Notes under the pieces: generated by a model
The model's input: only the letters and a program-made list of their open reading frames with translations
Told to the model about the DNA's origin: nothing
Database searches by the model: none
Source of the DNA: Kitasatospora cineracea
GTDB lineage: Bacteria; Actinomycetota; Actinomycetes; Streptomycetales; Streptomycetaceae
Assembly: GCF_003751605.1 (NCBI RefSeq)
Contig: NZ_RJVJ01000001.1
Location: forward strand, 868,001-932,000
Reading direction: 5' to 3'
DNA length: 64,000 nucleotides
Program-made: the position numbers and the translations under genes
Shown here: piece after piece, positions 8,935-50,953 of the stretch
Position numbering within the stretch: position 1 is the stretch's first letter
Layout of the letters: each line of letters begins with the position of its first letter

Positions 8935-8968
8935 CGTCCGGGGGCCCGCCGCGGCGGGCCCCCGGACG
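8935..8968 (-). terminator. Hairpin terminator of XRE/TPR regulator
   Basis: A 16-bp perfect stem, CGTCCGGGGGCCCGCC and its complement, around two central bases. It starts 7 bases beyond the stop of the minus-strand gene at 8976. Confidence 0.8.
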
Positions 8969-8975
8969 CCGGGCG

Positions 8976-35376: not shown

Positions 35377-36693
35377 TTACGGCTCCAGCCGGTTCGGGCC
35401 GCGGAACAGGAACACCGCGTCCCGGATCGAGGGCAGCCCGAGGGCCAGCATCAGCACCCGGCCCAGGCCCAGGCCGAACCCGCCGTGCGGCGGCATGCCG
35501 TACCGGAAGCAGTCCAGGTACCGGCCGAGCGGGCCCTCGGGGCTCGCGTCCATGCCCTTCTCCCGGGCCTGCGCGACCAGCCGGCCGTAGCGGTGCTCGC
35601 GTTGCGCACCGGTGGTGATCTCCACGCCCTTCCAGAGCAGGTCGAAGGACTCGGTGACGGCCGGGTCGCCGGCCGACCGCAGGTGGTAGAACGGCCGCAC
35701 CGAGGCCGGGAACCCGGTGACGAACACGAACTCGTGCCCGGTCTCCCGCTCCACCAGCGCGCTGAGCAGCCGCTCGCCCTCCGGGTCGAGGTCCTCCCGG
35801 ACGCCCTCCGGGTCCCATCCGGTGTCCCGCAGCCTCTTCACCGCCTCGGCCATCGTCAGCCGGGGGAAGGGCAGTTCGGGCACCACGACCCGTACGCCCC
35901 AGTGCCGCTCGATCTGCTCGCCGTGCCGCTCGGCGACCAGCTCCAGCGCCCGGCGCAGCATCCGCTCCTCGAAGGACATCACGTCCTCCACCCCGTCGAT
36001 CCACGCCAACTCGACGTCCACGCCGGTGAACTCGGTCGCGTGACGGGACGTGAAGGAAGGCTCCGCGCGGAACACCGGACCGATCTCGAAGACCCGGTCG
36101 ATGCCGCCCGCGATCGCCATCTGCTTGTAGAACTGCGGGGACTGCGCCAGGTACGCCTTCCGCTCGAAGTACCCGACCTCGAACACCTCCGCGCCGGACT
36201 CCGAGGCGGTGCCCATCAGCTTCGGCGTGTGCAGTTCGGTGCACCCCTGCTCGGCGGCGACCTCCCGCATCGCCTGCTCGACGGTGGTCTGCACCTCGAA
36301 CACCAGCCGCCGCTCCGGACGCCGGAGGTCCAGGAACCGCCAGTTCAGCCGCTGTTCGGGGCCGGTCTCCGGGCCGATCGGCAGCCCCGGCTCGGCGGCC
36401 GACACCACCTCGACCCGCTCCGGGACGATCTCCAGCCCGCCGAGCTTCACCACCGGGTTCGCCACCACCCGGCCGGTCACCACCACCGCCGACTCCACCG
36501 TCAGCCCCTGCAGCAGCTCCCCGAGCGCGTCCCCCTCACCCCCGCGCCGGTGCGTGACCTGCACCATCCCAGTGTGGTCGCGCACCACCACGAACTGCAC
36601 CTTGCTCTGCAGCCGCAGCGTGTTGACCCACCCCTTGACCGTCACCGTCCGACCGACCGCGGCCGGCAGCTCACCGACGAGGACACGCACCAT
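35377..36693 (-). CDS. aspS: Aspartate--tRNA(Asp/Asn) ligase, archaeal-type
   Basis: 438 residues from ATG 36693. OB-fold anticodon domain GRTVTVKGWVNTLRLQSKVQF, then class II motif 2 (GPVFRAEPSFTSRHATEFTGVD) and motif 3 (GGFGLGLGRVLMLALGL). It lacks the GAD insertion and is much shorter than the roughly 590-residue bacterial AspRS. It therefore belongs to the archaeal/eukaryal group, often non-discriminating. A normal bacterial AspRS is expected elsewhere in the genome, so this would be a second enzyme. No T-box or tRNA lies upstream. Confidence 0.9.
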   Translation of the reverse strand: MVRVLVGELPAAVGRTVTVKGWVNTLRLQSKVQFVVVRDHTGMVQVTHRRGGEGDALGELLQGLTVESAVVVTGRVVANPVVKLGGLEIVPERVEVVSAAEPGLPIGPETGPEQRLNWRFLDLRRPERRLVFEVQTTVEQAMREVAAEQGCTELHTPKLMGTASESGAEVFEVGYFERKAYLAQSPQFYKQMAIAGGIDRVFEIGPVFRAEPSFTSRHATEFTGVDVELAWIDGVEDVMSFEERMLRRALELVAERHGEQIERHWGVRVVVPELPFPRLTMAEAVKRLRDTGWDPEGVREDLDPEGERLLSALVERETGHEFVFVTGFPASVRPFYHLRSAGDPAVTESFDLLWKGVEITTGAQREHRYGRLVAQAREKGMDASPEGPLGRYLDCFRYGMPPHGGFGLGLGRVLMLALGLPSIRDAVFLFRGPNRLEP

Positions 36694-37021
36694 GCCGAAG
36701 CAACTCCCTGGGTTGCGGGCGCGTTGTTCGCGCCACGAGAAGAGCGGTAGACAGCCGCCCGAGGACACGCCCACGCTAACCCGCCCACCCCCACCGCCAC
36801 CTCCGGTTTTTCCCCGCACCCGGCCCGCCACCCGACCCCCGCCACGCCGACGGCCCGACTCGGCAGCGCCCCTCCCTCTCTCCTCCGCGCCCTTCCCACC
36901 TCCCCTCTCCTCTCCTCTCCTCCCCACCCCTCCACCGCCACTACGATGACCCGACTCGGCAGCGTCCGAGTAGAAGTGACTGCCCGTCAGTCATGTGCGC
37001 GTTCCCTGGGGAGGACGTCCG
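36694..37021. other. Divergent intergenic region with pyrimidine tract
   Basis: 328 bases between aspS and the PucR gene. Apart from the C/T-rich tract at about 36870-36932, I see a ribosome site GGGGAGGA at 37009-37016 for the PucR gene and no gene. Confidence 0.5.
36899..36925. repeat. Homopyrimidine tract with TCTCC repeats
   Basis: 27 consecutive pyrimidines built from TCTCC units. The centre is a mirror repeat. It forms the core of a longer C/T-rich stretch (about 36870-36932). Such tracts can form triplex DNA under supercoiling. Confidence 0.6.
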
Positions 37022-38680
37022 GTGGACGAGGATGCGTGGGACAGTTCCGCCCTGCGGGCGAAGACCCTGGCGGGGCTGCTGGCCCTGGTCGGCCCGCTGG
37101 TCGAGACCGCGGCCCTGCCGCAGCCGCAGGCCCCCGTCCGGCGCCTGGAGGTGTTCGACCCGCTCGACCGGCTCGCCGGGGCCCGGGACGGGACGGTGCT
37201 GGTGGCCGTCGGCGTCGACCCGCACGCGGCGGCCGCCGAGGACCTGCTGCGTGCGGCGGGGGACGGCCGGGCGGCGGCGGTGGTGCTGCGGGAGGTCGGG
37301 GACGGCGCGCGCAAGGACGCCCTGCGGGAGGCCGCCCGGCGGGCCGGCACGGCGCTGCTGCTGCGGGCCGCCTGGGCGGGCTGGCCGGAGCTGATCACCG
37401 CGCTGCGGGCCGCCGTCGAGAGCCCCGCGCCCGGCGGCACCGACGTGCCGCTCGGCGACCTCGGCGGCCTGGCCCGCCGGATCGCCCTGCAGGTCGGCGG
37501 TGCGGTGACCATCGAGGACCCGGACTCCCGGGTCCTCGCGCACCACGCGGAGAGCGCCGACCTGGACGGCATCCGGCTCCGGACGGTCCTGACCGGCACC
37601 GTCCCCGAGGAGCGGCGCCGGGCGATGGACCGGGACGGCTTCCTCCGGGAGCTGTGGTCCTCCCACCGGGTCCTCCACCGCCGGGCCGGCCCGGACGCCC
37701 CGGAGCGGATGGCGGTGGCGGTGCAGGCGGGCGGCGAGCGCCTCGGCTCGATCTGGGTGGCCGCGATCACCGGCCGGCCGCTCCAGGAGAGCGCCATCGA
37801 GGTGCTCCGGGACGCCGCCCGGGCCGCCGCCGTCCACCTGCTGCACCACCACTCCCGCCGCGACGCCCGGCAGGCCCTGCTGCTCGACGCCGCCCGCGCG
37901 GTGCTCGACGGCCCGGGCGCGGGCACCCTGCTCGCCGGGTACAGCGGCATCCCGGCCGACGCGCCCTGCGCCGTGCTGGCCGTCGGCACGCCCGGCCCGG
38001 TCGACGACGGCCGGCGCGTCCGGCTGGAGCGGCAGGTGCGCCTGCACCAGCCCCGCCCCGGCCGGGGCTCCCTGGTGCTGCCCGCCGACCGCGGCGTCCT
38101 GGTCCTGCTCGGCGGCCTCGCCGACCGGCCCGCCACCGCCGCCGCCCAGGCCGCCGACTTCGGCCACCGGCTGGCCACCGAGCTCTCGCACCGCTCCGAC
38201 GCCCCGGTCCTGGTCGGCCTCGGCCCGGTCCGGGCCCGGCTGGACGACGCCGCCCGCTCCCGCCACCACGCCGAACTCGCCCTGGGCGGCCTGCTGTTCG
38301 GCCGCCCAGGGCCCGAAGGCCGGTGCGCCACCGTCGAACAGGTCGCCGACGCGGTGGCCCTGCGCCACCTGCTCGAAGCCCTGCACGACCTGCCCCTGCC
38401 GGTACGGACCTCGGTCTCCCGCCTGATCGAGCAGACCGGACCGCCGGACGAACCGCGCAAGGGCGAACCCGACCCGCCGGCCATGCTGTACGCCTACCTC
38501 CGCCGCTCCGGCGCCCTGGGCCCGGCCGCCGACGACCTCGGCCTCGCCCGCACCACCTTCGCGGCCCGCTTCCAGGCCCGGGTCCTCAAACCCTCCGGCC
38601 TGGACGTGAACGACCCCGACGCCCGCCTGCTCGCCCACCTCCAACTCCGCGCCCTGCGCCACCGCGCCGAGGAACACTGA
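37022..38680 (+). CDS. PucR-family transcriptional regulator
   Basis: 552 residues from GTG 37022 with GGGGAGGA upstream. An N-terminal PucR-like region is followed by a GGDEF-like middle domain, visible around DAPVLVGLGPVRARLDDAAR and SRHHAELALGGLL. The C-terminal PucR helix-turn-helix reads AYLRRSGALGPAADDLGLAR and TTFAARFQARVL. Members control purine, amino-acid or polyamine use. The PLP decarboxylase gene lies 310 bases downstream on the same strand and is the most obvious target. Confidence 0.82.
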   Translation: MDEDAWDSSALRAKTLAGLLALVGPLVETAALPQPQAPVRRLEVFDPLDRLAGARDGTVLVAVGVDPHAAAAEDLLRAAGDGRAAAVVLREVGDGARKDALREAARRAGTALLLRAAWAGWPELITALRAAVESPAPGGTDVPLGDLGGLARRIALQVGGAVTIEDPDSRVLAHHAESADLDGIRLRTVLTGTVPEERRRAMDRDGFLRELWSSHRVLHRRAGPDAPERMAVAVQAGGERLGSIWVAAITGRPLQESAIEVLRDAARAAAVHLLHHHSRRDARQALLLDAARAVLDGPGAGTLLAGYSGIPADAPCAVLAVGTPGPVDDGRRVRLERQVRLHQPRPGRGSLVLPADRGVLVLLGGLADRPATAAAQAADFGHRLATELSHRSDAPVLVGLGPVRARLDDAARSRHHAELALGGLLFGRPGPEGRCATVEQVADAVALRHLLEALHDLPLPVRTSVSRLIEQTGPPDEPRKGEPDPPAMLYAYLRRSGALGPAADDLGLARTTFAARFQARVLKPSGLDVNDPDARLLAHLQLRALRHRAEEH

Positions 38681-38990
38681 CCACCCGGACCCGCGTCCGG
38701 ACACCGGTTCCGCCCGCCGGCCCGGTGCCCGTGCACCGCCCCCGTCCGCCGAACGCCCCGCCCGAGCCGCCCGCACCGTCCGACCCGCTCCTCCCCGGCG
38801 CCTCCGCACCGGACCGCCGCGCACCGGGGCCGACGCCGCGCACAGCGCCCGGCCCGGCGCCCGGAACCCGGCCCGGCCGCTGCTGCCCGCGACCCGCCCC
38901 GGCCGCCATCCTGGGAAGCACGGCCCCGGCCCGCGTCCGGGCCCGGCCCCTTCCGGTTCCTGCCCGACCGACCCGTGCGGAGCGTGCCCC
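38681..38990. other. Gene-free gap between PucR regulator and decarboxylase
   Basis: 310 bases of very GC-rich, proline/arginine-codon-like sequence with no supported gene, hairpin or promoter. Confidence 0.5.
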
Positions 38991-40325
38991 ATGCCCGAGA
39001 ACCGCCCCCCGTCCGAGCACCTCCCCTCCCCACTGATCGGCGCCGAGCGGCGCGAACTCCTGCTGCGCGAGGCGGTCCGCCAGGGCCTGCTCGACCCGGA
39101 GGAGACCCCGCTCGCCGCCTTCCTCGACCTGGACGCCGTCACCGGGACGGTCGCCGCCCTGCACGCCGCGTTCCCCGCCGCGCTGGACGTCCGACACGCC
39201 TTCGCCGCCAAGGCCAACCCGCTCGGACCGGTGCTGCGCCGGCTGCGCGCCCTGGGCATGGGCTGCGAGGTGGCCAGCCCGGGCGAGTTCGCGCAGGCCC
39301 TGGCCGCGGGCTTCCCGCCGGAGCTGATCGTGCTGGACTCCCCCGCCAAGACCCGCCGCGAACTGGCCCTCGCCCTGGACCTCGGCGTCACGGTCAACAT
39401 CGACAACTGGCAGGAACTGGCCCGGATCGACGCCCTGCTGGCCGGCCGCCGCTCCGCCGCCCGGATCGGCGTCCGGATCAACCCGCAGGTCGGCGGCGGC
39501 AGCATCGCCGCGATGAGCACCGCCACCGCCACCTCCAAGTTCGGCATCCCGCTCGCCGACGCGGGCAACGCCACCCGCCTGATCGAGGCGTTCCGGGCCC
39601 GCCCCTGGCTCACCGAACTGCACTGCCACGTCGGCTCCCAGGGCGTCGACCTCGACCTGATGGCCACCGGCGTCGCCGCCACCGCCGCCTTCGCCGAACG
39701 GATCAACCGGGAACTGGGCCGCCGCCAGGTCACCGGCCTCGACATCGGCGGCGGCCTGCCCGTCAACTTCGCCGACGACCGGATCGCCCCCGGCTGGGAC
39801 GCCTACGTGGACCGGCTGCGCACCCACGCCCCCGTCCTGTTCGACGGCCGCTACCGGCTGACCACCGAGTTCGGCCGCTCGGTGCTCGCCAAGTCCGGCT
39901 TCATCGCCTCCTACATCGAGTACACCAAGGAGGCCGGCGGCCGCCCCATCGCCATCGGCCACGCCGGCGCCCAGGTCGCCACCCGCACCGTCTTCATGCC
40001 CGACAGCTGGCCCCTGCGGATCAGCGCCCACCACCCCTCCGGCCGCACCAAGCACGGCACCCCCGTCCCCCAGGACGTGGCCGGCCCCTGCTGCTTCGCC
40101 GGCGACCTGATCGCCCGCGCCCGCCCCCTCCCCCGCCTCGACCCCGGCGACCTGATCTGCCTCCTCGACTGCGGCGCCTACTACCCCTCCAACCACTTCT
40201 CCTACAACTCCCTCCCCGAACCCCCCGTCCACGGCGCCACCACCACCCCCACCGGCACCGTCCACTTCACCCCCCTCCGCCCCGCCCAACCCCTCGAAGC
40301 CCTCCTCACCCCCACCCCCGCCTGA
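38991..40325 (+). CDS. PLP-dependent decarboxylase, DAP/ornithine decarboxylase (LysA) family
   Basis: 444 residues from ATG 38991. Fold type III enzyme: PLP Lys in RHAFAAKANPLGPVLR, GCEVASPGEFAQALAAG, HCHVGSQG and GLDIGGGLPVN (phosphate-binding Gly loop), and a second-subunit active-site Cys in LICLLDCGAYYPSN. The sequence departs from housekeeping LysA, so the substrate may be another amino acid. Probably under the neighbouring PucR regulator. Confidence 0.82.
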   Translation: MPENRPPSEHLPSPLIGAERRELLLREAVRQGLLDPEETPLAAFLDLDAVTGTVAALHAAFPAALDVRHAFAAKANPLGPVLRRLRALGMGCEVASPGEFAQALAAGFPPELIVLDSPAKTRRELALALDLGVTVNIDNWQELARIDALLAGRRSAARIGVRINPQVGGGSIAAMSTATATSKFGIPLADAGNATRLIEAFRARPWLTELHCHVGSQGVDLDLMATGVAATAAFAERINRELGRRQVTGLDIGGGLPVNFADDRIAPGWDAYVDRLRTHAPVLFDGRYRLTTEFGRSVLAKSGFIASYIEYTKEAGGRPIAIGHAGAQVATRTVFMPDSWPLRISAHHPSGRTKHGTPVPQDVAGPCCFAGDLIARARPLPRLDPGDLICLLDCGAYYPSNHFSYNSLPEPPVHGATTTPTGTVHFTPLRPAQPLEALLTPTPA

Positions 40326-40394
40326 CCGTCCGGGGGCCGACCACCCTGCGAAGGTGCTCAGTCGGCCGTCGACGGACCCGGGCGCTGTGCAGGG

Positions 40395-40523
40395 TTGGCC
40401 ATCCCGACCACCGCGCTCACCGTCAGCAGCGCACCCGGGAGAGGTCGTCCAGGACCGGCCGAACGGTCGGCCCCCACCGCTCCGGGGGCCGGACCCGTCG
40501 ACCAGGTACCGCTCGCGGCTCAC
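40395..40523 (-). pseudogene. Decayed VapC-type PIN toxin fragment
   Basis: GTG at 40523 overlaps the vapB stop as GTGA, the usual vapBC coupling. The frame starts like VapC (VSRERYLVD, with the first acidic PIN residue) but then runs into nonsense. Shifting frames recovers PTVRPVLDDLSRVRC and then LLTVSAVVGMANPAQ, in the order expected of VapC residues about 18-50. The remaining two thirds, including later catalytic acids, are missing. Confidence 0.5.
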
Positions 40524-40720
40524 GCCACCGTCTGGCCGTCGGTCCCGCCGAGGAGGTCGAACTCCCCGCCGGCCACGGCGTCCGCGAGCGCTGTCCGGCG
40601 GGCGAGTCTGACGGCTTCGAGCAGAGCGGCGTTCACCGTGGCCACCTTGGTGGAGGTGCCGAAGAACTGCTGTGCCTCGGCGAGGAGGTCGTCGTCGAGG
40701 TCGATGACCGTGCGCGTCAT
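40520..40720 (-). CDS. vapB: VapB-type antitoxin, orphaned
   Basis: 66 residues from ATG 40720 (GGAAGGAAGG upstream). Ribbon-helix-helix-like start MTRTVIDLDDDLLAEAQQFF, TSTKVATVNAALLEAVRLAR, and an acidic toxin-binding tail GGEFDLLGGTDG. Normally it neutralises and autoregulates with VapC, but the adjacent vapC is a fragment. The longer frame to 40786 has no support. Confidence 0.82.
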   Translation of the reverse strand: MTRTVIDLDDDLLAEAQQFFGTSTKVATVNAALLEAVRLARRTALADAVAGGEFDLLGGTDGQTVA

Positions 40721-40788
40721 GGTCGTCCTTCCTTCCGTCAGCCGCCTCCATGATGTCGAGCCGACCCGCCATCCGATATCGAACAACG

Positions 40789-40829
40789 CGCACGGCCCTC
40801 CCCCGCGCGGTGCGGGGAAGGGCCGTGCG
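40789..40829 (-). terminator. Hairpin beside the permease remnant
   Basis: CGCACGGCCCTCCCCCG pairs with CGGGGAAGGGCCGTGCG (one mismatch) over an 8-base loop. It abuts the permease fragment at 40830 on its downstream side. Confidence 0.65.
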
Positions 40830-40887
40830 GCGGCCGGCGACGATGCGCAGGAGGCAGAAGGTGATGAAGCCGATGCCGTTGGTGATG
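40830..40887 (-). pseudogene. 58-bp fragment of AzgA-type purine permease gene (direct repeat of 46491-46554)
   Basis: All 58 bases match 46491-46554 apart from one in-frame 6-base deletion. On the minus strand it encodes ITNGIGFITFCLLRIVAGR, against ITNGIGFGFITFCLLRIVAGR in the intact permease. Both neighbours are unrelated to the parent gene. Same orientation as the parent, 5.66 kb away, so the two copies bracket the island. Confidence 0.85.
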
Positions 40888-41185
40888 AAAGTGGTCAACG
40901 TCTTGGGTGCGATGTCGGCCCGGCTACCTACTCGCCCCGCCGCTTCGCAGGCCGCACCGAGCTGGACGTAGACCCTGACCAGCTCGTTCGGGTCCTCTAT
41001 GCCCGAGAGTCCGGGGGTACGGGTGGGCGGGTCGAGAGCCAGAAGTCGAAAGCCCCCGCACCCGCAAGTGTCTGGGGAGGCTGCGGTGCGGGGGTCGAGC
41101 CCGCCGGCGGGGGAAGCCGACGGGGGTACGAGGGCGCTTAAGGGCTCGTACCCACACCTGATGAGGAACGGCTGTCCGGACGTGA
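40888..41185. other. Island edge without intact gene; two hairpins
   Basis: 298 bases. A plus-strand frame reads RTELDVDPDQLVRVLYARES (about 40955-41014), like the tail of a broken gene I cannot identify. Hairpins lie at 41053-41094 (one bulge) and 41124-41153 (GGGTACGAG/CTCGTACCC). The second can terminate the minus-strand oxygenase gene. Confidence 0.45.
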
Positions 41186-42418
41186 TTACGCCGGAACCGG
41201 GGGAAGGTCCGAGAGGACACGTCCGGCTTGGTCCCGCGTGCGGAATCCGAGGCTGATGAGGGTGACGCTCTCCCCGGCGCCCAGGGGCGTCCGGCCGTGC
41301 GGTGTGAGCGCCCCGTCGAAGACGACACCGCTGCCCGCTGCGAGGTCACATTCGAGGTAGCCGGCGGCGCTGATGAAGACGGTGGTGCTCGCCTTGGCCG
41401 TCCCGGGGCGACGGGTACGCGCGAGGCAGATGATCAGGTTGGCTTCACCGAATCCGGCCTCGTCCACGTGGAAGTCGAGGAACTGTCCTTCCGTGTAGCC
41501 GATGTAGACGCCGGTGTGCGGCTGCTCGACGTCCAGGCCGGTGGACCGGGCCACGATCGCGGCCAGGTCGACCTGGGCGGCGAAGCGGTTCGCGGCGTCG
41601 CCGACGGCCGCGTTGCGCTTGCCGTTGTGCCGGTAGCCGTCAGCGGCGAGGGCCTGTTCGGCTTCCGCCGCCATGGCGGCGACCAGTTCACTGGGGAAGG
41701 GCTGGTCCCACAGGTGGCGGGGCTGCACCCGCTGGTGCACGGCGAGGCTCTGCACCGCACTCCGGACGGCGGTCAGGTCGTCGTGCCACCGGGTCGGGTC
41801 ACTCACGGTGGTGCGGGTCTGGAGCCAGGCTGTCCACTCGCGGCTCCACTCGCCCGGCGCCACGACGACCGGAGCTGACGCGGGGGCGCTGCCGATCAGG
41901 GTGTCCACCCGGTCGAGTGCGGCTTGCGTGGACTCGACCAACTCGGTGTTCCCCTTGGCGATCCGCAGCCGCAGCGCCTCTTGCAGATGTGTACGGGCGC
42001 CCATGAGGTCGCCGCGTTCCATGAGGTGCTTGCCGAAGTGCTGGAGCGCGAAGTCGAGGAGTTCCGGGCACTTGCTCCGCGCGGTGTCCAGGGCGTTGCG
42101 GTAGAACGTCTCCGCGGTCTCGACGTCGCCCGCGTAGCGGTGGGCGTCACCGAAGTTGAGTTCGGTGGCGACGACGGCCCGGACGTTCCCGCTGGTGATG
42201 GCCAGTTCGAGCGACCGTCGGAGGAACGTGTGTGCCTCGGCGTAGTTCCCGAGGCTCATCTCGGCGATGCCGATCCACCGGGTCAGGACACGAATCCGGT
42301 CGGGACCGGGGCTGGTGGCCAGCTCCTCCCGAAGCCCCTGCAATGCGGTGGTCAGCTCGGCCCGGTCGGTGGGAACCATCCGCAGGTCTGCGTCTTGTCT
42401 GATGAGGTGCTGGAGCAC
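41186..42418 (-). CDS. TPR protein fused to 2OG-Fe(II) oxygenase, putative peptide-modifying enzyme
   Basis: 410 residues from GTG 42418 (GAGGGAAGG upstream). Residues about 20-175 are TPR-like helices (GNYAEAHTFLRRSLELAITS, AETFYRNALDTARS, ARTHLQEALRLRIA). The C-terminal half is a double-stranded beta-helix: Fe ligands H and D in FLDFHVDEAGFGEANL (about 316-318) and the distal His with the 2OG-binding Arg in TPHGRTPLGAG (about 376). It follows the HEXXH gene by 36 bases. TPRs may bind the precursor. Hydroxylation of the peptide is inference. Confidence 0.75.
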   Translation of the reverse strand: MLQHLIRQDADLRMVPTDRAELTTALQGLREELATSPGPDRIRVLTRWIGIAEMSLGNYAEAHTFLRRSLELAITSGNVRAVVATELNFGDAHRYAGDVETAETFYRNALDTARSKCPELLDFALQHFGKHLMERGDLMGARTHLQEALRLRIAKGNTELVESTQAALDRVDTLIGSAPASAPVVVAPGEWSREWTAWLQTRTTVSDPTRWHDDLTAVRSAVQSLAVHQRVQPRHLWDQPFPSELVAAMAAEAEQALAADGYRHNGKRNAAVGDAANRFAAQVDLAAIVARSTGLDVEQPHTGVYIGYTEGQFLDFHVDEAGFGEANLIICLARTRRPGTAKASTTVFISAAGYLECDLAAGSGVVFDGALTPHGRTPLGAGESVTLISLGFRTRDQAGRVLSDLPPVPA

Positions 42419-42454
42419 TGGGCCTTCCCTCGGTCGGTTGCGGTCAGCCTGGCA

Positions 42455-43381
42455 CTACAGCTGGTCGATCTGCTGGCGCAGACCGTTCAGCAGGTCCACC
42501 CCGTGCGGGGTGAAGTGCTCACCCAGGACTTCGAGTTCGCGCATGAGGTAGCGGGCCGCCGGCAGTCCTTCGTCGTAGGCGCTCCGGAAGCACCCCCGCT
42601 CGTTGGCGGTCAGGTCGTCACGGTCCAGCTCGGTACGGCGGAACCGCAGCAACTGGCTGTAGACGCAGGTCGCGTGGAAGGCGCGGTCGATCTCCCAGGA
42701 CTGGTTGCGTGCGACGCCCTGACCGGCCCGCCACGCGATCTCGATCTTCGGTGAGGCCTCGGAGGAGTACCCGTCGGCGAAGACCTGGTGCTGGTGGATG
42801 TGCAGGGCGATCGACTGGTGCGTCCCCTCGTGCAGCAGGTTCTCCGCCAGGAACAGCGGCGACGGCTCCGGGCTGACGGTGTTCGGCGGGATGTGGTGCC
42901 GGGCCTTGTCGGAGAACACGATGACGTACGGGAGCGCCGGGTCACTGGAGCTGGTCAGCGACGAGATGGGGACACCGGGCTTGAGGCCCACCCAGAGCAT
43001 GCCGCGAACGAACTCGCGCATGCGCTCGAAGCCCTGGGGGTGGACCAGCGACAGGCGGTCCAGCGCAGTCATCAGCGCCGCACGTCGCTCGTCGGTGTGC
43101 TCCACGATCTGGTAGTTCGCCAGGTTGATGTCGTCGGCGATCTCGCGGGGCAGCTCGGCGTCGAACCAGTCGAAGGTGGCTCCGGCAATCGTCAGTTGTT
43201 CGCTGCGCAGGGTGCGGGCGTGTTCCGCGTAGGGGGTGTTCGAACGGAGGATGCGGCCCATCAGCGCGAACGGGAGGACCGACTCGGCACCCTCTTCCCG
43301 GAGTCGGGTCAGCTCCGGGTCACTGCGGGTGAGGTCGAAGAAGGAGCCGGACGGAACGCGGGCGGCAATCGTGGTCGACAC
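42455..43381 (-). CDS. HEXXH-motif peptide modification protein (alpha-KG-HExxH-type family)
   Basis: 308 residues from GTG 43381 with AGGAGA upstream; the frame to 43477 is unconserved leader. The motif AENLLHEGTHQSIALH (about residue 180) has His-Glu-x-x-His plus a third His downstream. This is the signature of the TIGR04267-type proteins found beside ribosomal peptides, now regarded as iron/alpha-ketoglutarate peptide beta-hydroxylases. It is a stand-alone version of the domain fused to FxsB at 21824-24208. A hairpin separates it from the precursor gene. Confidence 0.85.
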   Translation of the reverse strand: MSTTIAARVPSGSFFDLTRSDPELTRLREEGAESVLPFALMGRILRSNTPYAEHARTLRSEQLTIAGATFDWFDAELPREIADDINLANYQIVEHTDERRAALMTALDRLSLVHPQGFERMREFVRGMLWVGLKPGVPISSLTSSSDPALPYVIVFSDKARHHIPPNTVSPEPSPLFLAENLLHEGTHQSIALHIHQHQVFADGYSSEASPKIEIAWRAGQGVARNQSWEIDRAFHATCVYSQLLRFRRTELDRDDLTANERGCFRSAYDEGLPAARYLMRELEVLGEHFTPHGVDLLNGLRQQIDQL

Positions 43382-43431
43382 AGTGGACTCTCCTCGGACG
43401 GAACGTGCGGAAGACGGATCGGGAGGGGAGC

Positions 43432-43464
43432 GGGCCGACTCGGCTGTGTGCGCCGAGCCGGCCC
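43432..43464 (-). terminator. Attenuator-like hairpin between precursor and HEXXH genes
   Basis: GGGCCGACTCGGC (43432-43444) pairs with GCCGAGCCGGCCC (43452-43464) at 12 of 13 positions over a 7-base loop. It lies in the 123-bp leader between the peptide stop and the enzyme start, where partial termination would give excess precursor. Confidence 0.6.
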
Positions 43465-43504
43465 GCCGAGCCGCCAACGAGACGGCGTCACTTCAGGGTT
43501 GAGG

Positions 43505-43663
43505 TCAGCTCTCGGTGACCGGGACGAAGTCGCCGTCCGGGACCATGTGGTCCAGGGCGCGGGTCAGGCCGGTGACCACCGGCACGAAGTCGCCGTCCGG
43601 GACGGAGTGGTCCAGCCGCCGGGTCAGGGCGGTGATCTCCGGGGCCTGCTTGCTGTCGCTCAT
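43505..43663 (-). CDS. Repeat-containing peptide, putative RiPP precursor
   Basis: 52 residues from ATG 43663, preceded by GGGAGAAG 4 bases upstream. Leader MSDSKQAPEIT is followed by two 20-residue repeats, LTRRLDHSVPDGDFVPV (13-29) and LTRALDHMVPDGDFVPV (33-49), 15 of 17 identical, then TES. The DNA repeats are 43571-43630 and 43511-43570. It lies directly upstream of two oxygenase-type genes, so it is the expected substrate: the Asp, His, Phe and Val positions are invariant between repeats. No Cys, so not a lanthipeptide. The name is inference from context. Confidence 0.75.
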   Translation of the reverse strand: MSDSKQAPEITALTRRLDHSVPDGDFVPVVTGLTRALDHMVPDGDFVPVTES

Positions 43664-43793
43664 GTGCTTCTCCCATCGGATTCGTTCTGCCCGTCCAGAG
43701 ATGGGCGGACAGTCACGCAGGGTGGTGCAGCCCAGCCCGCCGGAAGCGTCCTTCCGAAGGGCCGGGAGTTCGTGAGCGCCTTGAGGCGCATGG

Positions 43794-43940
43794 TCAGGTG
43801 CGGCCGGACACGATCAGCACCGTCACCAGCGCCAGCAGCACCAACAGGGCGAGCGGGTAGGCCACGGCGACCGGTTTGGGGGTGGGAAGTCGGTGGGCGG
43901 CCCGCTCGGCCGCCGCGCAGTACTCGTCCTGCTCGTCCAC
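43794..43940 (-). CDS. 48-residue single-pass membrane protein
   Basis: GTG 43940. Acidic head MDEQDEYCAAAERAAH, then one helix YPLALLVLLALVTVLIVSG ending in RT. It begins 7 bases after the stop of the Cys-rich gene and ends 130 bases before the precursor, in the same direction. It could anchor the modification complex or act in export or immunity. No homologue recognised. Confidence 0.6.
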   Translation of the reverse strand: MDEQDEYCAAAERAAHRLPTPKPVAVAYPLALLVLLALVTVLIVSGRT

Positions 43941-43947
43941 TCCGTGC

Positions 43948-44247
43948 CTACGCCGACCGCTGGGCGTCGAGTGAGGCCCGAAGCGCGGCGCGACGGTGGG
44001 GGGTTCGAGCACGGGCGATGCAGTCGTTGCAGATCGCGTGACAGGTGCCCTCGGCGTCCTCAGGCGCTTGAAGCGTCGATCCGGCGCAGACCAGCGTGTC
44101 CCGGGAACAGGCCCAGCAGGTTCCCCGGAAGTACCCGTCAGGCCGTTCGACCTTGAACTCCTCACCGACAAGGCGGAAGGGCGGAGGCTTGTCGGCCTCC
44201 CCGTTCGTGTGGCGGCCGACGAGCTGGGCGGCAGCGCTGACAGACAT
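43948..44247 (-). CDS. 99-residue Cys-rich zinc-ribbon-like protein
   Basis: ATG 44247 with a strong GGAGG 6 bases upstream. Residues 44-76 carry CWAC, a single Cys54, CH at 69-70 and CNDC at 73-76. Two CxxC knuckles of this type suggest a structural zinc site. The N-terminal 40 residues contain FRLVGEEFKVERPDGYF. It is the first gene of the minus-strand unit, divergent from the XRE/TPR regulator. Role unknown: DNA-binding, leader-binding or scaffold are possible. Confidence 0.68.
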   Translation of the reverse strand: MSVSAAAQLVGRHTNGEADKPPPFRLVGEEFKVERPDGYFRGTCWACSRDTLVCAGSTLQAPEDAEGTCHAICNDCIARARTPHRRAALRASLDAQRSA

Positions 44248-44338
44248 GCGACCTCCAGGACGTGAGCTGATCAGGACGGTGTGACGCTCGTGGCGGTGGT
44301 CCGGGCGATGCAAGGAGAGCCCGATTGCGTTGAGCGCC

Positions 44339-44411
44339 TTGACAGTTAGTGAACCGGGAGACCAGCACAATCGGTACGCTTGCCAGCACGTAGAGTGGTT
44401 TAAGTGGTTTA
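44339..44411 (+). promoter_or_regulatory. Divergent promoter region with 9-bp tandem operator-like repeat
   Basis: TTGACA at 44339-44344 and an exact tandem AGTGGTTTA at 44394-44402 and 44403-44411, 24 bases before the XRE/TPR start at 44435. The AT-rich repeat stands out in this DNA and could be the regulator's own operator. Confidence 0.5.
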
Positions 44412-44434
44412 CAGCGCCACCTGGGGGACTGGTC

Positions 44435-45787
44435 GTGGACCCGAGCAACGAACCCAACCACCTTCTGAGAGAAGCGATTTCAAGCACTCGCTGGACCTAT
44501 GAGGCGCTTGCCGCTGCCGTGCGACGGATCGGCGCCGAGAACGGCGAGAGCCTGCGCACCAACAAGTCGGCCGTGGCGCACTGGGTCAAGGGCAGGCAGC
44601 CGACCGGGCAAGTGGGCCAGTACGTCGCCGAAGCTCTCTCCCGGCGTGTCGGACGGTCGGTCACGACAGTGGAGATCGGGTTCGCCGAGCCCTCGGAATC
44701 CCTTGCCGGGAGCCACGATCCGATCGAAGCAGCGACCATCCTCGGCCGCGCCGATGTCGAGCGCCGCAACTTCCTTGCGGTGGCGGCGTTCTCGGCCGCC
44801 GGTGTGGCTATGCCCCTGGGCTACGACCCCGAGCCGATCTCACGCCTGATGCGGACCCGTACCACCGCCACCCGGGTTGGCGCCGAAGAGGTCGAGGTGG
44901 TCCGACAGATCACGGCGGTGTTCAGCTCGGCAGACGAACGGCTCGGCGGCGGACACGGGTTGACCACCGTCACCGCGTACCTCGCCGACACGGCCGCTCC
45001 CATGCTCAGTGCCCGGTTCCCCAACGAAGGTGTCCGACAGCAAGCATTCGGGGCCGTTGCCGAACTCGCCTACCTGGCAGGCTGGAAGCATCACGACCTC
45101 GGGCAGGAAGGTGCTGCCCAGCGCTACTACCAACTCGGCTACCAACTCGCCGTCGAAGCCGATCCGTACGGCCATGCAGGCTGGATGATGCGCGCGCTCG
45201 CCCACCAGGCGCTCAGCCTCAAACAGCCGCGCAACTGCCTCGCACTGATCGAGAACGCCCTCCGCCGAAGCGACGGGCGCGTGGACGGGCAGACCGAGGC
45301 GCTGCTCCACATCACCCTCGCGAGGGCGTTCGCGGCCACCCGAGACAAACCGTCCGCAGCCCGCGCGCTGTTGGCCGCAGAGGACGCCCTCGCCCGGCAC
45401 GACGACCCGCAGCCCAGCTTCTCCCTCATGAGCGGCCCGGCCGCCGGCACCGTCGCCAGCCACACCGCCCGCACCCTCACCGACCTCGACGACCACACGG
45501 GAACCGAGCAGCAGCACCGGGCGGCGCTGATCCGTTGGGACTCCGAGAAGTACAAGCGGGTCCACGCCCTCACCTACGCCGACCTCGGGGACAGCTTGGC
45601 TGCCCAAGCCCGAGCCGACGAGGCGGTGGGCACCTGGGGCCGCGCGCTCGACCTCATGGAGGGGATGACCTCCGACCGGACGAGAAAGGCGATCAGCTCG
45701 ATCCGGCCACAGTTGGCGATCTACCGTAGTCGCGGAGTCCCAGGGGCCAGCGACCTGGAACGCCGAGCACGCGAGGCACTGACCTGA
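44435..45787 (+). CDS. XRE-type regulator with TPR-like sensor domain
   Basis: 450 residues from GTG 44435 (GGGGGA upstream). The helix-turn-helix region spans LLREAISSTRWTYEALAAAV to KSAVAHWVKGRQPTGQV. The hinge RADVERRNFLAVAAFSAAGV leads into TPR-like repeats (RYYQLGYQLAVEADPYGHAG). Same build as the regulator at 8976-10352. Less extreme GC at third codon positions than core neighbours. Divergent from the peptide locus and probably its regulator. The NUDIX gene follows after 29 bases. Confidence 0.8.
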   Translation: MDPSNEPNHLLREAISSTRWTYEALAAAVRRIGAENGESLRTNKSAVAHWVKGRQPTGQVGQYVAEALSRRVGRSVTTVEIGFAEPSESLAGSHDPIEAATILGRADVERRNFLAVAAFSAAGVAMPLGYDPEPISRLMRTRTTATRVGAEEVEVVRQITAVFSSADERLGGGHGLTTVTAYLADTAAPMLSARFPNEGVRQQAFGAVAELAYLAGWKHHDLGQEGAAQRYYQLGYQLAVEADPYGHAGWMMRALAHQALSLKQPRNCLALIENALRRSDGRVDGQTEALLHITLARAFAATRDKPSAARALLAAEDALARHDDPQPSFSLMSGPAAGTVASHTARTLTDLDDHTGTEQQHRAALIRWDSEKYKRVHALTYADLGDSLAAQARADEAVGTWGRALDLMEGMTSDRTRKAISSIRPQLAIYRSRGVPGASDLERRAREALT

Positions 45788-45816
45788 CAGTCCCACCGCC
45801 GGAAGGAACCGAACCC

Positions 45817-46311
45817 GTGGCCCAGACAAGCACCGATCAGCCCGTCGCGCTCAAACCCGCCACGGAGTCGATGACACTGCTGGTCGCCGCTGTGATCGTC
45901 CACGACCGCGAGGCCCGACGAGTGGTCCTCCTCCGACGAGGTCCGAAAGCCAAGTTCGCACAGGGCATGTGGGACCTCCCCGTCGGCAAGAACGAGCCGG
46001 GCGAGCCGATCACTCAGACCGCCGTGCGCGAACTCGCCGAAGAGACCGGACTCGTCGTGTCGCCCGACGCCCTGAACCTGGTGCACGTCATCCACGGAGC
46101 ACGGGGCGTCGAGGCCCCCAACGGCTTCCTGACCGTGGTGTTCGCCGCCAACGAGTGGTCCGGCAGCCTCCGCAACGGCGAGCCCGAGAAGCACTCCGAA
46201 GTCGCCTGGGTGAGCACCGAGACCCTCCCCCAGGAATTCGTCTCCACCACCGGGACGGCCCTCAACCGCTACCTCCGGAGCGGCCCCAGCGTCTCGCTCG
46301 ACTCCTGGTGA
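45817..46311 (+). CDS. NUDIX hydrolase
   Basis: 164 residues from GTG 45817 (GGAAGGAA upstream). Complete Nudix box GKNEPGEPITQTAVRELAEETGLV matches Gx5Ex7REUxEExGU. The fold begins MTLLVAAVIVHDREARRVVL. It hydrolyses a nucleoside-diphosphate-linked substrate that cannot be named. In operon with the XRE/TPR regulator. Confidence 0.9.
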   Translation: MAQTSTDQPVALKPATESMTLLVAAVIVHDREARRVVLLRRGPKAKFAQGMWDLPVGKNEPGEPITQTAVRELAEETGLVVSPDALNLVHVIHGARGVEAPNGFLTVVFAANEWSGSLRNGEPEKHSEVAWVSTETLPQEFVSTTGTALNRYLRSGPSVSLDSW

Positions 46312-46350
46312 TCCGGCTCCGTCCGAACCCACGAACACAGCACAACGCAA

Positions 46351-46384
46351 GTGGCCCCGCACTCGCCCAGGAGTGCGGGGCCAC
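46351..46384. terminator. Bidirectional hairpin at the right island edge
   Basis: A 14-bp perfect stem, GTGGCCCCGCACTC and its complement, with a 6-base loop, between the convergent NUDIX and permease genes. Confidence 0.85.
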
Positions 46385-46406
46385 CGTCGTAGCCAGGCGG
46401 TTCAGA

Positions 46407-47870
46407 TCAGAGCAGGCCGAGGGCCGGCATCAGGTAGTAGAAGGCGAAGACCGCGGCGACGCCGTACATGGCGATCGGGACGGTGCGGGCGCGGCCGGCG
46501 ACGATGCGCAGGAGGCAGAAGGTGATGAAGCCGAAGCCGATGCCGTTGGTGATGGAGTAGGTGAACGGCATCATCACGATGGTGAGGAAGGCCGGCATGG
46601 CGATGGTGAAGTCGGACCAGTCGATCTCCTTGATGGAGTTCGCCAGGATCAGGAAGCCGACGGTGACCAGCGCGGGGGTGGCGGCCTGGGCCGGGACCAT
46701 GGTCGCCAGGGGGGTGAGGAAGAGGGCGAGCATGAAGAGCGCGCCGGTGACGATGGAGGCGAAGCCGGTGCGGGCGCCCTCGCCGACGCCGGCGGTGGAC
46801 TCGACGAAGCAGGTGTTGGCGGAGGCGGAGGTGGCGCCGCCCGCGGCGGTGGCGATGCCGTCGACCATCAGGATCTTGTTGATGCCGGGGAGGTCGCCCT
46901 TCTCGTCGAGCAGGTGGGCCTCGTCGGCGACGCCGAGGATGGTGCCCATCGCGTCGAAGAAGCAGCTCATCAGCACGGTGAAGACGAACAGGACGCCGGT
47001 GAGGACGCCGACGTGCGAGAAGCCGCCGAACAGGCTGAAGTGGCCGACCAGGCCGAAGTCGGGGGTGGCGACGGGGTTGCCGGGCCAGGTGGGGACGGTG
47101 AGGCCCCAGGTCTCGGGGGCGAGGTCGGCGGCCTGCTGGATGACCACGGCGACGGCGGTCATCACGGCGATCGAGATCAGGATCGCACCGGGGACCTTGC
47201 GGATGACCAGGGCCATGGTGAGCAGCAGGCCGAGGATGAAGATCAGCACGGGCCAGCCGTGCAGGTGCCCGCCGGCGCCGAGCTGGAGCGGGACGGTGGT
47301 GTGGGCGGCGTCCGGGACGCGGGTGACGAAGCCGGAGTCGACCAGGCCGACCAGGGTGATGAACAGGCCGATGCCGATGGCGATGGCCTTGCGCAGGCCG
47401 AGCGGGACGGCGTTCATGACGCGTTCGCGCAGGCCGGTGGCGACCAGCAGCATGATGGCGAAGCCGGCCAGGACGACCATGCCCATGGCGTCGGGCCAGG
47501 TCATCTTGGGGGCGAGCTGGAGCGCCACGATGGTGTTGACGCCCAGGCCGGCGGCGAGGCCGATCGGCACGTTGCCGATGACGCCCATCAGCAGGGTGGT
47601 CAGGCCCGCGGTGAGCGCGGTCGCGGTGACCAGCTGCCCGCCGGCGAGGTGGGTGCCGTTCATGTCCGTGGCCGAGGCCAGGATGATCGGGTTGAGCACC
47701 AGGATGTACGCCATCGTGAAGAAGGTGGCGACACCACCGCGGATCTCGCGGGGCAGGGTGGAGCCCCGCTGCGAGATCTTGAAGAAGCGGTCCAGGGCGC
47801 CGGACGGGGGCTGCGGCGCGTTCTGGGAGGGCTCGGGCGACGCGGTGGTCGACTGGGCCTGCGGAGACAT
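46407..47870 (-). CDS. NCS2 purine permease, AzgA/PbuG type
   Basis: 487 residues from ATG 47870. Opens with GSTLPREIRGGVATFFTMAYILVLNP, the start of AzgA-type adenine/guanine/hypoxanthine permeases, with about 12-14 helices. Family segments include GLGVNTIVALQL and CFFDAMGTILGVADE, and ESTAGVGEGARTGFASIVTG is the substrate-site signature. Imports purine bases with protons. A 58-bp internal piece of this gene is duplicated at 40830-40887. No purine-riboswitch core is recognisable in the leader. Confidence 0.92.
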   Translation of the reverse strand: MSPQAQSTTASPEPSQNAPQPPSGALDRFFKISQRGSTLPREIRGGVATFFTMAYILVLNPIILASATDMNGTHLAGGQLVTATALTAGLTTLLMGVIGNVPIGLAAGLGVNTIVALQLAPKMTWPDAMGMVVLAGFAIMLLVATGLRERVMNAVPLGLRKAIAIGIGLFITLVGLVDSGFVTRVPDAAHTTVPLQLGAGGHLHGWPVLIFILGLLLTMALVIRKVPGAILISIAVMTAVAVVIQQAADLAPETWGLTVPTWPGNPVATPDFGLVGHFSLFGGFSHVGVLTGVLFVFTVLMSCFFDAMGTILGVADEAHLLDEKGDLPGINKILMVDGIATAAGGATSASANTCFVESTAGVGEGARTGFASIVTGALFMLALFLTPLATMVPAQAATPALVTVGFLILANSIKEIDWSDFTIAMPAFLTIVMMPFTYSITNGIGFGFITFCLLRIVAGRARTVPIAMYGVAAVFAFYYLMPALGLL

Positions 47871-48084
47871 GTCGGGGGTCCTCGATCGGAAGGGGCCGGG
47901 GGAGACCGGGAGTCAAGGCGGGGGACATTTCAGTATGTCGATTCCGGTCGTGCACGCGCCATCTTCGCGCGTAGAGCAAGCCCATTACGGTCACGCTCGA
48001 TCACCATCGCTCACGTTCGGCCCCTCTGGAGGGCGGCCGACCACCTCTCCCGGACGCCCCGGGCCGCCCCGTAGGCTAGGGCCC

Positions 48085-48363
48085 ATGCCCAAGACCGCGC
48101 TGCGCTCCGCTCCCCCGCCCCTCGAGGGGAACGACGTCGCCATCGTCGGCACCGGCACGGTGCTGTGGTTCGTCGGCTTCGTGGCGCTGGTGCCGTTCCA
48201 GGGGTGGCTCTCCGACCACGGCCACGGCACCTGGCCGTGGATCTGCCTGTCCGGCGGCCTGCTCGGCCTGATCGGCCTCAAGTACTGCACCGCCCGCCGC
48301 GCCGCGATCCGCCGCGCCCGCGCCGCCGAGGCCGCCGGAGAACCCGGGGAAGCCGCGCTCTAG
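48085..48363 (+). CDS. DUF2530 small membrane protein
   Basis: 92 residues from ATG 48085. Begins with PPPLEGNDVAIVGTGTVLWF, then two helices (VLWFVGFVALVPF and WPWICLSGGLLGLIGLKYCT) and a basic C-terminal tail RRAAIRRARA. This is the conserved DUF2530 layout, regularly found divergent from the AzgA-type permease in streptomycetes. Function unknown. Confidence 0.85.
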   Translation: MPKTALRSAPPPLEGNDVAIVGTGTVLWFVGFVALVPFQGWLSDHGHGTWPWICLSGGLLGLIGLKYCTARRAAIRRARAAEAAGEPGEAAL

Positions 48364-48513
48364 CGCGCCGCCGCACCACGCCGCCGTAACGCGCCGCCGC
48401 ACCACGCCCCGCACCACGCCGCCGCAGCACGCCGCCGCCCCCGCCACCCGTCCGGCCGGAATCCGGCCCGAGGCGGGACGCACCGGGCAAATCGCCCACC
48501 TAGAGTCGGTGCC

Positions 48514-50940
48514 ATGACGCACTCAGCGGAAGGCACCGCCGCGCCCGGCCCGGGCCCCGGCGCGCACCCCACCGGCGCGGGCGGCGCGTACCAGCCCGGG
48601 CTGAGCGGCGCCGAGGTCGCCGAGCGGGTCGCCCGCGGGCAGCTGAACGACGTCCCGGTGCGTTCCAGCCGCTCGGTGCGGGAGATCGTCCGGGCGAACG
48701 TGTTCACCCGGTTCAACGCGATCATCGGGGTGATGTTCGGCATCATCCTGGTGGTCGGCCCGATCCAGGACGGCCTGTTCGGCCTGGTCATCGTCGCCAA
48801 CACGGCGATCGGCATCGTCCAGGAGATGCGCGCCAAGAAGACCCTGGACAGCCTCGCGCTGATCGGCGAGGCCCGCCCCCAGGTCCGCCGGGACGGCGCC
48901 GCGGTGCAGGTCCCCGCCGGCGGGATCGTGCTGGACGACACCGTGCTGCTCGGCATCGGCGACAAGGTCGTGGTGGACGGCACCGTCACCGAGGCGGACG
49001 CCCTGGAGGTCGACGAGTCGCTGCTGACCGGCGAGCCGGACCCCGTCCACAAGCGCCCCGGCGACCACGTGATGTCCGGCTCCTTCGTGGTGGCCGGCGC
49101 GGGCGCGTTCACCGCCACCAAGGTCGGCCGGGAGGCGTACGCCGCGAAGCTCGCCGAGGAGGCCAGCCGGTTCACCCTGGTCAAGTCCGAGCTGCGCACC
49201 GGCATCGACCAGATCCTGCGGTTCATCACCTACCTGCTGATCCCCACCGCGATCGGCCTGGTGATCAGCCAGCTCGCGGTGCAGCGCAACGACTGGAAGG
49301 AGGCCGTCCGCCGGATGGTGGCCGGCATCGTGCCGATGGTCCCCGAGGGCCTGGTGCTGCTCACCTCGGTGGCCTTCGCCATCGGCGTGGTCCGGCTCGG
49401 CCGCAAGCAGTGCCTGGTCCAGGAACTGCCCGCGATCGAGGGCCTGGCCCGGGTCGACACCGTCTGCCTCGACAAGACCGGCACCCTCACCGAGGGCGGC
49501 ATGGACCTGGTCGACCTCCGCCCGCTCGCCGACCCGGCACGGGCCCCGCAGGCCGACAAGGCCGTGCTGGCCGAGGCGCTGGGCGCGATCGGCGCCGCCG
49601 ACACCCGGCCCAACCCCAGCATGCAGGCCGTCATCGACGCGTATGGGCCCCCGCCGGAGGGGCGCTGGCGGCTGCTGGAGGCGATCCCGTTCTCCTCCGC
49701 CCGCAAGTGGAGCGGCGTCCAGCTGCTGGAGCCCGGCGGCACCGAGGGCAGCTGGCTGCTCGGCGCCCCCGACGTGCTGCTCCCGCCCGGCTCCCCCGCG
49801 CTGGCCGAGGTCGACGAGCTGGGCGCGCAGGGCCTGCGGGTCCTGCTGCTGGGCCGCAGCCCGCTGCCGCTGGACGACCCGGACCCGGCCGCCCGGCTGG
49901 AGCCGCTGGCCCTGCTGGTGCTGCAGCAGCGGCTGCGCGAGGACGCCGCGGACACCCTGCGCTACTTCCGCTCCCAGGACGTCCGGGCCAAGGTCATCTC
50001 CGGCGACAGCGCCGTCTCGGTCGGCGCCGTCGCCGCCCACCTCGGCCTGCCCGGCGCGGAGACCGCGACCGACGCCCGCACCCTGCCCACCGACCCCGAG
50101 CAGCTCGCCGAGGCCGCCGACCGCACCGCCGTCTTCGGCCGGGTCACCCCGCAGCAGAAGCGCGCCCTGGTCGGCGCCCTGCAGTCGAAGGGCCACACCG
50201 TGGCGATGACCGGCGACGGCGTCAACGACGTCCTCGCCCTCAAGGACGCCGACATCGGCGTGGCGATGGGCACCGGCTCGGACGCCACCCGGGCCGTCGC
50301 CCAGATCGTGCTGCTGGACGACCGGTTCGCCACCCTGCCCTCGGTGGTCGCCGAGGGCCGCCGGGTGATCGGCAACATCGAGCGGGTCGCCGGGCTGTTC
50401 CTGGTCAAGACGGTCTACTCGGTGCTGCTGGCCCTGCTGGTGGTGTTCACCCAGGTGCCGTACCCGTTCCTGCCCCGGCACTCGACGGTGCTGTCCTCGC
50501 TGACCATCGGCATCCCGGCGTTCTTCCTCGCCCTCGCCCCCAACAACGAGCGGGCCCGCACCGGCTTCGTCCGCCGCGTGCTGCGGCTGGCCGTCCCCGG
50601 CGGCGTCGTCTGCGGCGCGGCGACCTTCACCGCCTACGCGCTGGCCCGCGGCGACGACGAGACCACCCTGAAGGCCGACACCTCGGTCGCCACCCTGACC
50701 CTGTTCATCACCGCCATCTGGGTCCTGGCGATCGTCGCCCGCCCCTACACCTGGTGGCGCCTGCTGCTGATCGGCGCCATGTCCGGCGCGTTCGCGCTGG
50801 TCCTGCTGGTGCCCTGGCTCGCCGACTTCTTCCAGCTCCAACTCGTCGGCTGGCGCGACCCGTTGACGGGCGTGGCGATCGCCCTGGTGGCGGGCTGCCT
50901 GCTGGAGGTCAGCGCCCGGGTCTTCGCGGAGCGGAAGTAG
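48514..50940 (+). CDS. P-type cation ATPase, CtpE-like
   Basis: 808 residues from ATG 48514. Phosphorylation site DKTGTLT with Asp320, actuator loop LLTGEPDPVH, hinge TGDGVNDVLALKDADIG and membrane motif VPEGLVLLTSVAFAIGVVRLG. The VQELPAIEGLARVDT segment preceding the site is typical of mycobacterial CtpE, implicated in Ca2+ uptake. About ten transmembrane helices. No N-terminal heavy-metal domain. Convergent with the sacsin-like gene, 13 bases apart. Confidence 0.9.
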   Translation: MTHSAEGTAAPGPGPGAHPTGAGGAYQPGLSGAEVAERVARGQLNDVPVRSSRSVREIVRANVFTRFNAIIGVMFGIILVVGPIQDGLFGLVIVANTAIGIVQEMRAKKTLDSLALIGEARPQVRRDGAAVQVPAGGIVLDDTVLLGIGDKVVVDGTVTEADALEVDESLLTGEPDPVHKRPGDHVMSGSFVVAGAGAFTATKVGREAYAAKLAEEASRFTLVKSELRTGIDQILRFITYLLIPTAIGLVISQLAVQRNDWKEAVRRMVAGIVPMVPEGLVLLTSVAFAIGVVRLGRKQCLVQELPAIEGLARVDTVCLDKTGTLTEGGMDLVDLRPLADPARAPQADKAVLAEALGAIGAADTRPNPSMQAVIDAYGPPPEGRWRLLEAIPFSSARKWSGVQLLEPGGTEGSWLLGAPDVLLPPGSPALAEVDELGAQGLRVLLLGRSPLPLDDPDPAARLEPLALLVLQQRLREDAADTLRYFRSQDVRAKVISGDSAVSVGAVAAHLGLPGAETATDARTLPTDPEQLAEAADRTAVFGRVTPQQKRALVGALQSKGHTVAMTGDGVNDVLALKDADIGVAMGTGSDATRAVAQIVLLDDRFATLPSVVAEGRRVIGNIERVAGLFLVKTVYSVLLALLVVFTQVPYPFLPRHSTVLSSLTIGIPAFFLALAPNNERARTGFVRRVLRLAVPGGVVCGAATFTAYALARGDDETTLKADTSVATLTLFITAIWVLAIVARPYTWWRLLLIGAMSGAFALVLLVPWLADFFQLQLVGWRDPLTGVAIALVAGCLLEVSARVFAERK

Positions 50941-50953
50941 CCGCCGGGGCCCG

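Follow-up and report, generated by a model that had tools for sequence, protein, structure and literature searches.

The 64,000-nt window analysed here (Kitasatospora cineracea, contig NZ_RJVJ01000001.1, positions 868,001 to 932,000 of the forward strand) contains a short open reading frame (ORF) that, judged from its relatives and the selection acting on it, is a real gene of 52 amino acids (aa). It probably encodes a precursor of the ribosomally synthesized and post-translationally modified peptide (RiPP) type, whose conserved Asp, His, Phe or Pro residues would be hydroxylated by two predicted oxygenases. Together with the two enzyme genes it forms a cassette, a putative and apparently undescribed three-gene peptide-hydroxylating system, with the following parts:

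43505–43663, minus strand: two-unit precursor-like peptide gene, 52 aa (translation, relatives, selection)
43580–43627, minus strand: repeat unit 1, LTRRLDHSVPDGDFVP, residues 13–28 (translation, alignment)
43520–43567, minus strand: repeat unit 2, LTRALDHMVPDGDFVP, residues 33–48 (translation, alignment)
43667–43674, minus strand: ribosome-binding-site-like GGGAGAAG, 3 bases 5' of the precursor ATG (sequence)
42455–43381, minus strand: 308-aa HExxH protein, predicted alpha-ketoglutarate HExxH peptide hydroxylase, with HEGTH at 42818–42832 (motif, profile, fold)
41186–42418, minus strand: 410-aa protein with tetratricopeptide (TPR) repeats (residues ~18–180) and a 2-oxoglutarate (2OG)-oxygenase-like domain (~190–410) (Pfam, alignment, fold)

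Read on the minus strand, 43505–43663 translates to MSDSKQAPEITALTRRLDHSVPDGDFVPVVTGLTRALDHMVPDGDFVPVTES*, and nothing resembling the two-unit peptide appears in its plus-strand translation. The initial annotation had described a hidden 52-aa peptide with two near-identical 20-residue repeats, preceded by a good ribosome site and lying directly before two genes of peptide-oxidation type. Its length, the two repeats and the ribosome site all hold, as does the gene order, with the HExxH gene and then the TPR-2OG-like gene following on the same strand after gaps of 123 nt and 36 nt; the conserved unit, however, spans 16 residues, and the gene is only partly hidden, 'hypothetical protein' being the existing annotation of several relatives. 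Across loci, the two units are separated by a linker of 4 to 7 residues. The N-terminal 9–16 residues are weakly conserved, and the motif LTRRLDHxVP is found within each unit and in the peptides of sister clusters described below. A Pfam scan of the peptide gave no family.

A database search with the precursor returned 13 proteins at E ≤1 (range 8.5e-22 to 1.3e-8), and the matches with a named source are hypothetical proteins of Kitasatospora and Streptomyces. Precursors from 21 loci were compared (L017–L030, L058, L060, L061, L062, L064, L077 and L079), in all of which the start, the ribosome-site-like sequence and the reading frame are retained. Twelve of the 16 positions of unit 1 are invariant in 21/21 rows, and the ratio of non-synonymous to synonymous differences (pN/pS) is 0.095 for unit 1 and 0.286 for unit 2. 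A chance repeat or a shadow ORF was rejected on the strength of this purifying selection and of the homologs. Neither of the two outcomes that the initial annotation had named as refuting its reading was observed: homologous short ORFs were indeed found beside related enzyme pairs, and purifying selection was seen within the repeats instead of non-synonymous drift. It had also held that repeat conservation marks the Asp, His, Phe and Val positions as modification candidates. The conserved residues of the unit are Asp, His, Phe, Pro and the Val preceding Pro, which bears out the first three; the Val after Phe (position 15) varies in unit 1 (A in 11 rows, V in 8, T in 1 and P in 1) and is therefore a poor modification candidate. 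Synonymous divergence (pS) between the two units of one locus is 0.19, compared with 0.30 and 0.31 for the same unit across loci, which suggests that units 1 and 2 recombine with each other; the database match P0017, a single-unit form in which the precursor start and unit 1 are joined to the end of unit 2, fits this suggestion.

The HExxH motif of the 308-aa protein is present in 20/20 aligned rows. Its predicted structure matches the ChlB/SjiH fold, with 11–14% sequence identity over the structural match, whereas the HExxH alignment, used as a profile against PDB sequences, had no match. At E 1e-5, 25 of 394 genomes of the family, from 4 of its 17 genera, contain relatives, some of which are fragments or distant members; the matches L069 and L070 were put aside as distant. 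A profile search of 394 genomes of the class gave three matches, namely the window genome, one genome of the same family and, by contig position, the Planobispora cluster.

The iron-binding triad HxD...H of the TPR-2OG protein (H317, D319 and H374) is invariant in 21/21 rows of its alignment. A Foldseek search with the predicted structure retrieved the human Asp/Asn hydroxylase AspH, the prolyl hydroxylase (P4H) structures 4j25/4iw3 (TMt 0.61–0.70) and others at E <1e-4; the 2OG part was hardly tested in the VIA list. AspH likewise combines TPR repeats and a 2OG-oxygenase-like domain in a single protein. It differs in domain arrangement, as indicated by a whole-chain TM of ~0.25, and sequence identity is ~11% to AspH and ~20% to 4j25. 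AspH is described as using two His only; the HxD...H residues of the bacterial prolyl hydroxylase comparison (4j25 type) are matched in the TPR-2OG protein. A scan of genome contigs with the TPR-2OG alignment located 19 loci in Kitasatospora, Streptomyces, Streptacidiphilus and Planobispora. Across 17 loci, including L059, the distances of the HExxH and TPR-2OG proteins correlate with r 0.91.

A profile built from 14 precursor peptides and run against 70 genomes of the genus matched in 15 of them. Two low-scoring matches, in G022 and G035, were dropped as chance, with no enzyme genes within their 3-kb loci, leaving 13 genomes and 14 loci, all of which show the order precursor, HExxH, TPR-2OG. 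Adding L058, L060, L077 and L079 gives 18 complete cassettes in Kitasatospora, Streptomyces and close relatives (L028, with masked bases at the HExxH start, was scored as intact). Three further loci hold a precursor with damaged partners: the TPR-2OG gene is frameshifted in L061 and interrupted by an in-frame stop in L062, while in L064 the HExxH gene is truncated and a TPR-2OG gene gave no match. In eight loci that lack the precursor motif, one enzyme gene or both are present, complete or fragmented (L059, L063, L065, L067, L068, L085, L088 and L089; those in L085, L088 and L089 are TPR-2OG pieces). The Asp at unit position 13 is present in 36/36 units of the 18 intact loci and is also kept in L061; it is lost from both units in L062 and from unit 2 in L064. 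This natural-knockout pattern is suggestive; L062 and L064 share their peptide ends and may represent one lineage. Within 2 kb downstream, no ORF cluster is common to more than 2 of 20 loci (L064 had no stretch and that of L029 is shorter), and one genome, G026, holds two divergent cassettes (L022 and L030). Because downstream flanks differ, copies often decay and one genome has two divergent copies, the cassette is probably a mobile, regulator-swapping unit; no recombinase accompanying it was identified.

Between the precursor and the HExxH gene lies one further conserved element:

43429–43467, minus strand: conserved covarying RNA hairpin with a 14-bp stem in the precursor–enzyme spacer (folding, covariation)

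In an alignment of 20 of the 21 loci (L028 was left out because of masked bases), 97.5% of the cells in the two helices of the structure pair. Five pairs are changed on both sides, a number reached in 4/500 shuffles, and the covariation score is 0.239 against 0.117 in shuffles (0/500). Sliding the alignment by 1 to 3 columns lowers pairing to 26–46%, and the folding z of the window's spacer is -3.5. A terminator was rejected, as the stem is followed by no T-run and no terminator-like site was found; Rfam gave no family at gathering score in 40500–46500. The hairpin likely keeps the precursor message above the enzyme message.

Related clusters occur in Streptacidiphilus pinicola (L066/L086) and in Planobispora takensis (L087, whose genes were identified by eye from translations). 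Each encodes a 46–47-aa peptide with VSV[ED]RLTRRLDHMVPEPxMLATITS together with a 2OG protein (45% identity) and a HExxH protein (31% identity at L066). These clusters share with the cassette the short peptide containing LTRRLDHMVPE and the two proteins just named; they differ in having one unit with the core PEPxMLATITS and in additionally encoding a 150-aa protein, a second 2OG-like protein, an M13 peptidase and, in a gene of its own, a TPR protein. Since the motif is shared while the core differs, the comparison points to LTRRLDHxVP as a part recognized by enzymes common to both cluster types, or as one containing shared sites.

Upstream of the precursor, the window encodes a regulator in divergent orientation:

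44435–45787, plus strand: NsdA-family TPR-like regulator, divergent, upstream of the precursor (hidden Markov model, HMM)

A helix-turn-helix (HTH) regulator is encoded within 2.6 kb upstream in 19 of the 21 loci. It belongs to the NsdA family by HMM in L018, L019, L024, L027, L028 and L030 and by similarity to the window's protein (53–98% identity) in L017, L058 and L079; HTH plus DUF5753 regulators occur in L021, L022, L029 and L062, and HTH_3 or HTH_31 regulators in L023, L026, L060, L061, L064 and L077 (under the curated cut-off in L060 and L064). Among the ORFs tested in L020 and L025, no HTH regulator was recognized by HMM. Upstream ORF clusters reach 11, 10, 9 and 6 of the 21 loci, the identified examples being regulator genes or antisense readings. 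The window genome (8.76 Mb) gave 73 HTH_31 matches, from 150 of 539 candidates scored, and 23 NsdA-family rows (22 genes) above cut-off, several of these being the same genes; with about one HTH_31 or NsdA-family gene per 92 kb or fewer, closeness by chance would be expected in a few per cent of loci.

These observations can be combined into a putative mechanism. In every unit, LTRRLDHxVP would serve for recognition of that unit and DGDFxP, which comes after it, as the core. The predicted HExxH hydroxylase and TPR-2OG oxygenase would hydroxylate the Asp, His, Phe or Pro of the unit, with the 2OG domain presumably acting on a peptide held by the TPR domain. The hairpin would set the precursor level above the enzyme level, the swappable upstream HTH regulator would control the cassette, and the three genes would spread together. 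The short precursor is encoded by an ORF that 21 loci conserve under purifying selection, and in 18 of them genes for modifying enzymes, with predicted activity, lie beside it; modification of the peptide, and any new RiPP class founded on it, are inferences. If this reading is right, the cassette would be a compact peptide-oxidation unit, whole in 18 loci and decayed elsewhere, in which a hydroxylase of the HExxH kind, discovered only recently, and an AspH-like TPR-2OG protein share a single short tandem-repeat substrate. Genes of this size should be quick to express, the repeat design would allow testing of recognition within a unit and offer a handle for engineering hydroxylated peptides, and testable predictions on the expression and spread of such units follow from the conservation of the hairpin and from the swapping of regulators upstream.

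The kinds of enzyme paired with the precursor are partly known (PMC12636437, PMC13060819). ChlB-type alpha-ketoglutarate HExxH enzymes (comparison structure 8s5f) are radical SAM fusions that beta-hydroxylate Asp and His, and they resemble the HExxH protein in the predicted HExxH-domain fold, the motif and an adjoining short precursor with conserved Asp and His (PMC12636437). The 308-aa ORF differs from them in lacking a radical SAM domain, in scoring under the NCBIfam cut-off, in its tandem-unit precursor and in its TPR-2OG partner; among 13 distinct proteins at 35377–54283, where the ORFs were scanned in part (Pfam; seven also NCBIfam), no fused or adjacent radical SAM enzyme was found. PflC/PosC and PesO of Pseudomonas and Peribacillus, which have MNIO partners, are likewise stand-alone HExxH genes in small peptide clusters, in which several residue types are hydroxylated (PMC12636437, PMC13060819). 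In contrast, no MNIO match was found among the genes scanned around the window, the precursor sequence differs, and no acetyltransferase or transporter of their kind was seen. A search of the open-licence PubMed Central literature found nothing on the peptide, its motif or a HExxH and TPR-2OG pair in Kitasatospora. As far as these searches show, the enzyme pairing, the tandem units, the hairpin and the mobile, regulator-swapping setting are new, while the enzyme kinds are known.

Several observations weigh against hydroxylation of a RiPP-type precursor. The 21 loci include several close relatives and are not independent samples. The HExxH protein scores 31.9 bits (E 1.2e-7) against NCBIfam TIGR04267, short of the curated cut-off of 40, and is for that reason called a structural relative and not a member. 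No Pfam 2OG model matched the third protein of the cassette, so its domain is termed 2OG-like (the sister protein scores 15.4 bits with a cut-off of 27). 2OG oxygenases usually carry an Arg or Lys about ten residues past the distal His, and here that position is not conserved, although an Arg at +2 is. Both units are kept in L061 despite the frameshifted TPR-2OG gene; L059 has two apparently intact enzyme genes and no precursor upstream, and the precursor profile found no match anywhere in its genome (G004). Finally, no transporter or protease gene is common to the flanks examined.

Hydroxylation of His, Asp, Phe, Gln and Pro is reported for members of the HExxH family, and for PflC/PosC backbone cleavage as well (PMC12636437, PMC13060819). 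The HExxH enzyme might mainly cleave the peptide backbone, oxidatively or hydrolytically, between or after the units, yielding a trimmed pair with hydroxylation as a minor event, which we regard as rather unlikely. The peptide, modified or not, might also stay in the cell and bind the adjacent HTH regulator as its ligand, many such regulators having TPR-like peptide-binding folds, with the enzymes tuning the signal and no product exported. The lack of a common exporter in the flanks examined and the frequency of nearby HTH genes, far above the few per cent expected by chance, would agree with this; yet the peptide is nearly constant across loci whose regulators fall into three or more types, and cytosolic peptide signalling is not known for NsdA proteins, which makes such a role improbable. 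A more far-reaching version, considered very unlikely, is a new modified-peptide class with recognition in each repeat and two unrelated iron oxygenases, in which the uncut, unexported peptide would act as an intracellular oxygen- or 2-oxoglutarate-dependent switch read by a swappable HTH/TPR regulator; its logic would be that of protein hydroxylation switches, here in bacteria. That the ORF is an untranslated or non-functional repeat beside two unrelated enzyme genes has some appeal in its shortness and in the cassette remnants that lack it, but the retained start, ribosome-site-like sequence and frame, the low pN/pS of both units and the conserved hairpin 3' of it make this exceedingly improbable. 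A hydroxylated RiPP-type precursor is the most probable of these readings.

Further observations concern the surroundings of the cassette and its relatives. A defence role was rejected, as PADLOC gave no family except a weak generic TPR match. No iron box was matched in the window at up to three mismatches to a consensus, a comparison that is weak evidence. A GCACCA[C/T/A]CC-like element, a possible promoter or operator element, is visible by eye ~50–80 nt before the precursor start in ~15 of the 21 loci, the other upstream DNA having diverged. The 150-aa protein of the sister clusters (L066:10002-10454, minus strand; L087 about 8722-9177, plus strand) belongs to a family of 18 matches, including Bacillus, Brevibacillus and Psychrobacillus, in which two stretches are well conserved, one like LPDPSLGPDERLERIARVVP and one like LRxRLDELVP; the second is similar to LTRRLDHxVP of the precursor. 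A DxD[FY]xP motif common to the precursor and the 150-aa protein seemed promising in two sequences (shuffle probability ~0.003) but was rejected, as it is not conserved in the family of 18; a search for this protein in 396 genomes of the phylum gave no match, which is uninformative as evidence of absence. A 49-bp direct repeat of 98% identity (40830–40878 and 46491–46539) brackets the cassette and its regulator in the window, one copy lying within the 3' part of a permease gene (46407–47870); in L017 the stretch matches only at the permease and not beside the cassette. Upstream in L060, an HD-domain protein (Pfam) is encoded beside the HTH regulator, and similar-looking genes are seen by eye in L023 and L026. 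Just 5' of the precursor, the window also contains:

43794–43940, minus strand: 48-aa ORF with one strongly hydrophobic stretch, upstream of the precursor (sequence, subset of loci)

A Pfam scan of this ORF gave no family. Small ORFs with such a stretch (Kyte–Doolittle hydropathy, KD, >2) occupy the same place in L017, L021, L029, L062 and L064, with a less similar one in L018, and the 48-aa product could be an immunity or export helper.
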